DNA of 33,395 nucleotides from a virus. Under the pieces are notes generated by a model, which saw nothing but the letters and a program-made list of their open reading frames with translations, had not been told where the DNA came from and did not search any database. Within the stretch, counting starts at the first letter, position 1; each line of letters starts with the position of its first letter. Both the position numbers and the translations under genes were made by a program. Location: positions 1 to 33,395 of the IMG/VR virus record IMGVR_UViG_3300021378_000089. One strand, given 5' to 3'. Below are positions 19,711 to 24,637 of the stretch, piece by piece.

Positions 19711-19761
19711 AGGTGCGTTCCTTCGCATAATGCTACTTCCGTCCCGATTGGGATGAACGAT
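19711..19761 (-). promoter_or_regulatory. Glutamine riboswitch (glnA / Downstream-peptide class)
   Basis: On the minus strand the order is CGUUCAUCC, a UCCC-AAUC-GGGA hairpin, GACGGAAGUAG, a GCA-UUA-UGC hairpin, then CGAAGGAACGC. These are the conserved blocks and order of the glutamine aptamer family as I know it, and P1 is CGUUC/GAACG. GCACC at the aptamer's 3' edge (19716-19712) can pair with GGUGU (19695-19691) next to the start codon. This would mask part of the AGGAGGG site and compete with the end of P1, giving a plausible translational switch. Confidence 0.85.
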
Positions 19762-19774: not shown

Positions 19775-19777
19775 CAT

Positions 19778-19802
19778 AAAAAAAGAGGAATAAATCCTCT
19801 TT
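19778..19802 (-). terminator. Intrinsic terminator after pqqA-like gene
   Basis: Minus-strand AAAGAGGA-UUUAU-UCCUCUUU stem (8 bp, 5-nt loop) running into a U tract. It starts 17 bp after the pqqA stop codon and separates it from the riboswitch unit. Confidence 0.8.
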
Positions 19803-19818
19803 CTTTAAGCAACACTTA

Positions 19819-19893: not shown

Positions 19894-19911
19894 AATAATC
19901 TCCTAATAATA

Positions 19912-19926
19912 TGTGCAACTTGCACA
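19912..19926. promoter_or_regulatory. Perfect 15-bp palindrome in the pqqA leader (operator or hairpin)
   Basis: TGTGCAA-C-TTGCACA, a perfect 7-bp inverted repeat around one base, 19 bp before the pqqA start. If transcription begins from the box at 19931, it covers about +1 to +14, where a repressor site or a 5' hairpin (UGUGC/GCACA) would act. Confidence 0.5.
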
Positions 19927-19930
19927 CTAT

Positions 19931-19938
19931 TATTTAAA
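19931..19938 (-). promoter_or_regulatory. Candidate T4-type late promoter of pqqA (TTTAAATA)
   Basis: Minus-strand octamer matching TATAAATA at 7 of 8 positions, in the gap between the gp23 terminator and pqqA. It predicts a leader of about 32 nt. Confidence 0.45.
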
Positions 19939-19983: not shown

Positions 19984-20015
19984 AAAAAAAGGGCGATATA
20001 AAAATACCGCCCTTT
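19984..20015 (-). terminator. Intrinsic terminator of the head operon (after gp23)
   Basis: A 12-bp stem AAAGGGCGGUAU/AUAUCGCCCUUU with a UUUU loop and a seven-U tail on the minus strand. The only imperfect pair is a G-U wobble on this strand and an A-C mismatch on the other, which fixes the orientation. A second hairpin UAGAUUU/AAAUCUA (20018-20034) precedes it after the gp23 stop. Confidence 0.88.
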
Positions 20016-20041: not shown

Positions 20042-21214
20042 TTACGCAAATCTTAGGTTTGCAGATGTTACTGCAACTTTGCCTAAGTAGTCAGCCGCAT
20101 TACCAAGAGATGATGCAGTGTTTGTTAACTCTACATAACCATATCTTGTCATGAAACTAACAACTGGCTCAAATGTACCTGGATCAAGTACAACACCGCT
20201 TGACATTAAAGGAATGTATGGGCAGTAGAACGCAGCAGCGTCTGATTCCGAAGAACCTTTGTAACCGATCAACACATCGTCGTCAGTTGCATAACCGTTT
20301 ACGTACACACGCATTGCACTGTTTAAAGTTCCTACAAACTTAGTGTTTGTTGGTGCTTCAAAAGTACCTTCAGTTGTTCTTGCGAACGCTGAAGTTGTAG
20401 CAGATTGTAACAAAGTTAATACTGTTGGTGAAACAACAGCCCAGTTACCTGCGCCACGTCTTGTACGCTGTGCAATCAAGTTAGCAACTCTGTTGATTTG
20501 AACAGCTAAAGCAGCATGTTCGTCACCAACGAAAGTAGCAGTACCTGATACTGCACCTTGGTCATAAGTTAAAGCAGCCGTACCAGCAAGTGTTTTCAAA
20601 GATTGAATAACTTCTTGGTCAATTTCAGCTGTAATTTCTTGTGCTAAAGCAGCCATTACTTCTGCTTCGATGTCAATGCCCTGTTGAGCTTGTGCATCTT
20701 GAGCAGCTTCAAACGTCCAACGAGCACTCAACTTACGAGTTTTCGCTTCAACAGTTTGTTTCAAGATTTGAATGCTTAGTCTGTTTCCAGCTACACCTTC
20801 TAAAGCTGCTGTAGAAGCTGCTTTATCATTAGTAGCACCAGAATAACCTTCTGCGATCTTGAAAGGTGATAGTGCTTCGTCACCTGCTGTAGTGTCAGTT
20901 CCACTTGCAGAGTTGAATGCATCAGCATAACGTACTCTTAATGTGTGGATTTGACCAACAGGTCCAGTCATTGGCTGTACACCAACCAATTCGTTTGCGA
21001 TGACAGTTGGCATCACACGTCTGATCACTGGAAGGATCACACGGTTTAGTGTTGCAACGTTACCGGCAGAAGTAGCACCTGCAGTGGCAGACTCGTTCAA
21101 ATACGTGCGGGTATTCTCTAGAGTTGTTGCCATAACAGTACGCTTGTTACCTTGAAGTCCTTCTAAAAGGGCATCTTTGGTTTCTGACCAGCGACTTTCT
21201 AGTAGTTGTGACAT
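20042..21214 (-). CDS. 23: Major capsid protein gp23
   Basis: T4-type major head protein, recognised by its N-terminal half (ATLNRVILPVIRRVMPTVIA, then ELVGVQPMTGPVGQI and LRVRYAD) and central LSARWTFEAAQDAQAQQGID. T4 gp23 is 521 aa and this is 390, so it lacks much of the insertion domain, as in distant marine relatives. A gp21-type cleavage site (L/I-x-E) is seen at LNE after residue 41, followed by SATAGA, which would leave a mature chain of about 349 residues. The C-terminus (VVSFMTRYGYVELTN) is typical. It is the last gene of the gp20-gp23 operon, 11 bp after gp22, and is followed by a strong terminator, which fits high expression. Confidence 0.96.
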   Translation of the reverse strand: MSQLLESRWSETKDALLEGLQGNKRTVMATTLENTRTYLNESATAGATSAGNVATLNRVILPVIRRVMPTVIANELVGVQPMTGPVGQIHTLRVRYADAFNSASGTDTTAGDEALSPFKIAEGYSGATNDKAASTAALEGVAGNRLSIQILKQTVEAKTRKLSARWTFEAAQDAQAQQGIDIEAEVMAALAQEITAEIDQEVIQSLKTLAGTAALTYDQGAVSGTATFVGDEHAALAVQINRVANLIAQRTRRGAGNWAVVSPTVLTLLQSATTSAFARTTEGTFEAPTNTKFVGTLNSAMRVYVNGYATDDDVLIGYKGSSESDAAAFYCPYIPLMSSGVVLDPGTFEPVVSFMTRYGYVELTNTASSLGNAADYLGKVAVTSANLRFA

Positions 21215-23989: not shown

Positions 23990-24637
23990 TTAAATGGTAT
24001 TATTTTGACTCATTTTGTGTTGATATATAGTTCCTTCGAAGGTATTCTCAAAATCACGCATACTAATGTGTTTTAAATTTGTATGCTGTGGACCTAGTTT
24101 ATCGGGTATAAATGCGCCATCATCAATGATTCTATAAAAGGTTACCTTGGTAAATTCCTTAATTACCTTTTCTGTTTGGCTTAGCCAATTGCCAAAAAAC
24201 GTTGCAGAATCAGTGGTTTTCTTGTAATTAAAGGTGTCTGCGTATACATTATTAAACTTTCCTTTAAGTCCTTGATAATCAAATCCAGCAATATAAATGT
24301 GTCTATGGCCGTTTTGTGCTGCAAACCACAGTGCAGTAGGACCGCTACTCCATCCTTTGTGTGGACTAAAATAGTTAATATTACTATTAGTTTTAATCCC
24401 TTTGTTAGGATTAGTCCATACTGTACCCTTTTGATGGTAGTTTGCTTCAATCATCTCATTAACCATTTTAACATCTACTGCTACAACGTAATGAGGATCA
24501 AACTCTCTGTATTGTGCATTACAACCATATACTGTTCCAATGTTTAAAAGTTTTTCACAGTTAATGGTGCCGCGGCTCATGCCGTTGCCTAATACGAATG
24601 CTATATCTTTGTGGTGTTTTTTATTCTTCTTGCTCAA
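23990..24637 (-). CDS. Rossmann-like DUF115/sialyltransferase-like protein in the head operon (215 aa)
   Basis: The N-terminus IAFVLGNGMSRGTI (glycine motif LGNG at 16-19), then YGCNAQYREFDPHYVVAVD (37-55), GWSSGPTALWFA (95-106) and HIYIAGFDY (113-121) follow the motif order of DUF115 / family-42-glycosyltransferase-like Rossmann proteins, some of which transfer sugars or modify pterins. The product is soluble. It starts inside the 3' end of the 79-aa gene (17-bp overlap) and precedes the acidic core gene, so it is inserted between the gp67- and gp68-position genes of the T4 head order. A role in glycosylating virion or host surface molecules is an inference. No acceptor-specific motif can be read. 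Confidence 0.7.
   Translation of the reverse strand: MSKKNKKHHKDIAFVLGNGMSRGTINCEKLLNIGTVYGCNAQYREFDPHYVVAVDVKMVNEMIEANYHQKGTVWTNPNKGIKTNSNINYFSPHKGWSSGPTALWFAAQNGHRHIYIAGFDYQGLKGKFNNVYADTFNYKKTTDSATFFGNWLSQTEKVIKEFTKVTFYRIIDDGAFIPDKLGPQHTNLKHISMRDFENTFEGTIYQHKMSQNNTI

Follow-up and report, generated by a model that had tools for sequence, protein, structure and literature searches.

The pqqA gene of a virus in the IMG/VR collection (IMGVR_UViG_3300021378_000089) is preceded by a perfect palindrome, which raises the question of what this element does. The DNA analysed here, called the window, is the whole stretch of 33,395 nucleotides of that record. The original prediction had placed the palindrome over the transcription start of pqqA, just downstream of a promoter-like box. 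It had proposed that the palindrome serves as an operator or as a 5′ stability hairpin, and that pqqA may be controlled separately from the capsid operon. The palindrome is indeed present at this place, with two perfect 7-bp arms around one central base (Table 1), and its notable feature is its position, not its sequence.

The pqqA gene and its late promoter box

The gene behind the palindrome is pqqA, as had been proposed. Its product, which contains EVTMY, scored 43.8 bits against the PF08042 profile, for which the cut-off is 21.1. The hallmark of PqqA is a short peptide with an E-x3-Y pair. On the minus strand the window contains, in this order, the capsid gene gp23 (PF07068), which ends at 20042, a terminator, the late box TTTAAATA, the palindrome, AGGAG, pqqA, and a terminator-like hairpin. 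Because a terminator stands between the capsid gene and pqqA, the latter looks like a late unit of its own. The proposed separate control of pqqA holds only in the sense of a separate transcription unit. The late-type box suggests that the timing is probably shared with the capsid genes, which belong to the late class as well.

Table 1. Features around the pqqA leader of the window, and examples of the R1 motif at other pqqA loci
Feature	Position	Strand	Basis or remark
Intrinsic terminator in the gap between the capsid gene and pqqA	19988..20015	-	fold, -16.9 kcal/mol; T run after it
T4-type late promoter box TTTAAATA (-13 to -6)	19931..19938	-	T4 late rule (PMC1524935); TAAATANTAG counts in relatives
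Longer bulged inverted repeat	19905..19934	-	-9.4 kcal/mol; whole only in RNA started upstream of +1
15-bp palindrome TGTGCAA-C-TTGCACA	19912..19926	strand-neutral	sequence
Predicted transcription start (+1)	19925..19925	-	last A of box = -6
Predicted 5′-terminal RNA hairpin GUGCAAGUUGCAC	19913..19925	-	-5.6 kcal/mol
Ribosome binding site AGGAG, not part of the hairpin	19900..19904	-	sequence
pqqA, PQQ precursor peptide MKWTKPQATEMRFGFEVTMYVANR, 24 aa	19819..19893	-	PF08042, E 2.3e-11
Terminator-like hairpin 3′ of pqqA	19777..19807	-	fold, -14.9 kcal/mol; missing from the list of the terminator scan
Glutamine riboswitch	19761-19712	-	Rfam match
manA RNA	19432-19228	-	Rfam match; sigma-70-like site 19473-19446, 11/12
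Freshwater-2 RNA	18870-18782	-	Rfam match
R1 motif, examples	L230:809-851, L262:6017-6059, L302:5175-5216, L343:7008-7053		15 more loci

The late promoters of phage T4 carry TATAAATA at positions -13 to -6, and those of phage Aeh1 carry CTAAATA from -12 (PMC1524935). The promoter-like box noticed ahead of pqqA agreed with the T4 box in seven of eight positions, as expected of a T4-type late promoter, and occurs only once on the minus strand of the window. Seven [ACT]TAAATA sites were found on the minus strand between 7546 and 29303, four of them mostly or wholly outside the listed genes (binomial p 0.001, with a baseline of 7.7% non-coding DNA that is an overestimate since the ORF 23990-24637 had been left off the gene list). 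Among the relatives, TAAATANTAG occurred 11 times in forward and 0 times in reverse orientation in the 117-kb L189 contig (control 2 and 1), 3 and 14 times in the 268-kb L163 contig (control 3 and 7), and 2 and 0 times in the 99-kb L066 contig (control 1 and 1). The strand bias in two of these relatives supports the assignment to the T4-type late promoter class, and the box is typical of this phage lineage.

The predicted transcription start depends on the rule that the last A of the box is position -6, and two internal calibrations in the phage lineage support this rule. The box CTAAATA at 19773-19767 gives a +1 at 19761, exactly where the Rfam match to the glutamine riboswitch begins. The second calibration comes from 32 distinct TAAATANTAG sites, collected from the window, the 80 gp23 relatives listed, the L189 contig (11 stretches), and six additional pqqA loci. 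An open ATG was located exactly at +1 in 11 of them, including the window's site 24872-24860, while 11 others had no open ATG in range; the reversed control pattern had no open ATG at this offset in any of its six sites. At a third box (18892-18886) the rule fits less exactly, with the +1 ten bases ahead of the freshwater-2 match. With this calibration the T4 late rule places the +1 of pqqA within the palindrome, as had been anticipated. The late boxes with an ATG at +1 are that of the window (minus strand) and those in L004, L007, L010, L012, L019, L077, L465, L472, L473, and L475, and thus in this group of T4-type phages some late mRNAs are apparently leaderless, starting at the AUG itself. 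Three known structured RNAs, which are the glutamine riboswitch, manA RNA, and freshwater-2 RNA, follow in series behind pqqA on the minus strand.

Sequence and conservation of the palindrome

Read along the pqqA strand, the palindrome begins 4 nt past the late box, ends 7 nt before AGGAG, and belongs to a larger, bulged inverted repeat, AATAATA-G-TGTGCAAGTTGCACA-TATTATT. One exact copy is present in the window, yet palindromes of this kind are not rare in its DNA: those with arms of at least 7 nt and a 1-nt center numbered 10, compared with a mean of 3.1 in ten shuffles, and those with centers of 0–5 nt numbered 33, compared with 22.1 in shuffles. When the 56-nt leader was shuffled, an equal stem was reached in 457 of 2000 sequences and an equal minimum free energy (MFE) in 222 of 1000. 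The 30-nt bulged hairpin (19934-19905) ranked 97 among 11122 minus-strand 30-mers, and the 71-nt fold spanning the leader and the start codon had a z value of -2.0, with 6 of 200 shuffles equally stable. Hence, the palindrome is real and well placed, yet its rarity by itself is no proof of function, and taken alone it is an ordinary element. The ten comparable palindromes and the ease with which local shuffles reach the stem agree with the possibility that it is neutral, with the inverted repeat having arisen by chance in an AT-rich spacer and moving along with an exchanged pqqA cassette, although we regard this as rather unlikely given its placement and the data on other phages described below.

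The conservation of the palindrome was analyzed in the 133 phage pqqA loci listed, which are a sample from IMG/VR contigs that are themselves fragments. TAAATANTA was found 26–43 nt ahead of the pqqA start in at least 12 rows, representing 10 distinct contigs. The palindrome is kept in six of these 10 listed contigs (window, L002, L099, L113, L163, and L189) and missing in four (L066, identical with L301; L067, identical with L307; L284; and L296). The refuting observation named in the original prediction, a lack of conservation in relatives that carry pqqA, was therefore made only in part, and the four contigs without the palindrome are consistent with its neutrality. L066, L067, and L284 carry gp23, which marks them as T4-type, while the 5-kb stretch of L296 contained no relative of eight window proteins. 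The leaders starting at +1 are unstructured in L066 and L284 and weakly folded in L296. In the T4-type phage Melnitz, pqqA is preceded by neither the late box nor the palindrome, and pqqA was present in 3 of the 80 gp23 relatives listed, many of which are short fragments. In L066, pqqA (7307-7236, minus) has its own late box and lies in the opposite orientation to gp23 (plus), and its cassette stands back to back with DNA resembling the manA RNA region of the window.

The comparison of the window with L189 showed 139 of 142 identical columns between 19975 and 19834, as against 905 of 1201 in the capsid gene and 64 of 114 past pqqA, and L099 and L113 have the same leader as these two. It appears from these alignments that the compared carriers share one nearly identical, recently exchanged block, which again agrees with neutrality. 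Because this block is common to them, the agreement of the carriers is not independent, and conservation was rejected as a proof of selection. The palindrome is therefore not a required element, nor do the data establish its independent conservation.

Dyad symmetry across +1 is the classic position of an operator, and the 7-bp arms would suit a protein that binds at the start site and represses or times pqqA. A search of phage and host DNA, as had been suggested, was performed, and the palindrome did not recur at phage or host promoters in the window, three relatives, and 120 host-family genomes. The window, the 268-kb relative, and the 117-kb relative each contain it once, the 99-kb relative lacks it, and one of the 120 host-family genomes has it. 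Among the 119 viral loci listed, pqqA stands at most 120 nt behind the palindrome in five. The leader hairpins of other phage pqqA genes, which have unrelated sequences and unequal loops, also argue against a shared operator. These data make the operator improbable, and this option of the original prediction was not upheld.

Two further candidates were considered for the palindrome. A terminator on the plus strand was not favored, since the T run is broken and listed plus-strand ORFs are absent nearby. A known riboswitch was rejected, since no Rfam family matched over the palindrome at the gathering level; at E ≤ 5 only plus-strand sRNA models were obtained there, far below their cut-off.

Predicted hairpins at the 5′ end of pqqA messages

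The second option of the original prediction, a 5′ stability hairpin, was supported by the position of the fold. The predicted +1 is the first base of the predicted hairpin (offset 0 nt, with the 5′ end itself predicted), and the mean pair probability of its 5-bp stem is 0.92 in the first 45 nt and 0.75 in 100 nt. The L189 contig has 11 late sites, and a stem of at least 5 bp within the initial 30 nt was found only at the pqqA site, so the hairpin is not general to late leaders in this contig. That the hairpin starts at +1, unlike at the other ten late sites of this relative, argues against a neutral repeat. Based on these predicted folds, it is on balance somewhat probable that the palindrome encodes a stabilizing hairpin at the 5′ end of a late, monocistronic message for pqqA. 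Several observations count against this stabilizing hairpin. These are the frequency of such palindromes in the DNA of the window, the four late-box contigs without the palindrome, the missing or weak structure of the leaders in L066, L284, and L296, the exchanged block shared by the compared carriers, and the less exact fit of the third box, as well as the host leaders and the slight covariation described below. In addition, in the 150-nt message modeled for the window, a fold between the leader and the distant 3′ region wins, leaving the 5′ hairpin a probability of only 0.14. This fold could suggest a translation switch, in which the leader pairs with the region past pqqA, or the stem limits ribosome access. 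In agreement with it, the window's predicted 146-nt message folds the leader onto the 3′ region with -30.0 kcal/mol, and the ribosome site is predicted to be paired in part, with an unpaired probability of 0.5–0.73. On the other hand, the 5′ hairpin dominates in L189 and L099, with probabilities of 0.92–0.93 at 150–165 nt, and no ligand or regulator is known, which makes a translation switch improbable.

The leaders of pqqA genes in phages and in hosts were compared with control leaders of mechanically called ORFs. One of 133 phage leaders and one of 128 host leaders were dropped because they had less than 60 nt upstream, and a filter at ≥75% identity kept 62 of the remaining 132 phage and 72 of the remaining 127 host leaders. 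The data showed that stems of at least 6 bp were present in 29 of the 62 non-redundant phage leaders, and in 12.3% of 268 control leaders from the same contigs. The MFE z values were -1.00 for phage pqqA leaders and -0.29 for controls (p 5e-6), while the raw MFE differed less (p 0.056). Host pqqA leaders had no excess of such stems (13 of 72 vs. 22 of 130), and they also folded more strongly than controls (MFE z -0.99 vs. -0.41, p 0.001).

The position of the stems was analyzed relative to the -10 hexamer, for which 20 of the 62 phage leaders were dropped because they lacked this hexamer, and removal of the T4-type groups left 41 of 42 phage and 89 of 94 control leaders. A stem of at least 5 bp that starts 3–9 nt past the hexamer, which by its sequence position corresponds to a hairpin at the presumed +1, was found in 15 of 41 non-T4 pqqA leaders and in five of 89 controls (Fisher p 1.7e-5). 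Mononucleotide shuffles gave a mean of 2.5 and a maximum of 9, as compared to the 15 observed. The recurrence of +1 hairpins ahead of pqqA in unrelated phages speaks against the neutral explanation. The stems are unrelated in sequence and close loops of 3–9 nt, which favors RNA hairpins over a shared operator. The hairpins of two other phage groups each contained one compensating pair; this covariation is slight, and it was dropped as an argument because one pair each is too few. A TAATGAT element was also observed 27–109 nt ahead of pqqA in 16 of 61 phage and three of 126 host leaders, a comparison with hosts only. It is present in the window at 19973-19964 (minus), and in Melnitz it seemingly contains the stop codon of the preceding gene.

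A different motif, named R1 (CAAG-N4-ACYT...CTCT-N4′-TGA), was observed upstream of pqqA at 15 phage and four host loci. Its 5-bp helix showed compensating changes in all five pairs, with 98.9% of cells paired across 19 sequences, while a second helix that was tried, between CAAG and CYTG, paired in 72.4% and had no compensating change. R1 had no match in Rfam at the gathering level (14 loci) or at E ≤ 5 (one locus). The R1 model gave a single match each in 14 of 120 Methylophilaceae-family genomes, all of 1.2–1.4 Mb, and pqqA followed in 15 of 15 host loci checked, at least three of which had been in the model. Judged from these alignments, R1 is a candidate riboswitch of the PQQ pathway. The leader of the window was also considered as a member, since it contains CAAGTTGCAC, which is similar to the 5′ portion of R1. 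The R1 model, however, gave no match over this leader, and its best match in the window (E 2.7) lies elsewhere.

PqqA supply and comparison with known systems

PQQ synthesis consumes PqqA, and PQQ serves methanol dehydrogenase. In the mechanism that we propose, a phage-modified RNA polymerase would start near 19925 from the TTTAAATA box late in infection. The product would be a monocistronic message of about 150 nt, consisting of the hairpin, AGGAG, pqqA, and the terminator hairpin. The paired 5′ end could hinder 5′-end-dependent decay of the RppH/RNase E type, while the ribosome site would stay free outside the stem. High production of PqqA, one molecule of which is spent per PQQ, would thereby be favored, and this supply would support the methanol dehydrogenase of the infected methylotroph. 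Both RppH and RNase E have been described to be hindered by 5′ secondary structure (PMC3997798). The Methylophilaceae genomes of one study contain 3–12 copies of pqqA, with the other pqq genes as a rule single-copy (PMC4109929), which fits a demand for dosage. A short late message with hairpins at both ends is thus a plausible route to a high yield of PqqA.

The 12 phage records that matched PqqA comprised nine Methylophilales/Methylophilaceae phages, one unassigned member of Caudoviricetes, and two Acinetobacter phage contigs, and the genome contigs with EMRFGFEVTMY were mostly from Methylophilaceae among the matches listed. The predominance of Methylophilales/Methylophilaceae phages means that the host range fits the proposed PqqA supply. 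No PQQ-enzyme domain (PF13360) was found in the three relatives searched, which are fragments or of uncertain completeness. A pqqA gene without an annotated feature is present in the phages Venkman (MT375522), MEP301 (MW452941), MEP401 (OP830906), MEP402 (OP830907), and P19250A (KX815270), the last of which is said to encode none of the putative auxiliary genes reported (PMC7678222). A c-di-GMP riboswitch adjoins a pqqA of M. nitratireducenticrescens GP59 (PMC12530212). Among the publications listed, none dealt with the leader of a phage pqqA, as judged by titles and abstract openings.

More tentatively, the predicted structures could mean that methylotroph phages have repeatedly fitted pqqA with structured 5′ leaders, hairpins with no common sequence in some, including the window, and R1, maybe a switch for a PQQ-pathway metabolite, in others. 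The palindrome could then be one of several convergent ways of adjusting how much of a stoichiometric RiPP precursor is made during infection. Since both leader hairpins and R1 recur ahead of pqqA, the control of PQQ supply by viruses of methanol oxidizers becomes a testable question. The locus also suggests that a phage-borne gene for a cofactor precursor can be organized as a separate late message whose ends are protected, as would be expected if the peptide is needed in bulk.

Several known systems resemble parts of this locus. The Lake Baikal virus VP_266 is likewise a T4-affiliated virus of Methylophilaceae that carries pqqA, and the portion of the source considered here treats this gene and not its leader (PMC7678222). 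The T4-type late promoters (gp55/gp33/gp45) share with the pqqA box the TAAATA core at -11 to -6, and the sites are mostly one-stranded in a relative. They differ in that here TTTAAATA replaces TATAAATA, the box is often extended by NTAG(T), and many late messages seem to open at AUG (11 of 32 sites). The glutamine riboswitch, manA RNA, and freshwater-2 RNA are structured RNAs in the same region and on the same strand of the phage, while the pqqA hairpin differs from them in having no Rfam family at the gathering level. A further known type is that of the 5′-terminal stabilizing stem–loops of bacterial mRNAs, such as that of ompA, in which the stem is formed by the first nucleotides of the message, as is predicted here, and the ribosome site is downstream and outside the stem. 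In contrast to them, the hairpin described here is short (5 bp) and weak, stands under a late phage promoter, and has a stabilizing role that is predicted. The 5′ hairpin as a device is itself ordinary, and its recurrence ahead of pqqA in many unrelated viruses is the exception.
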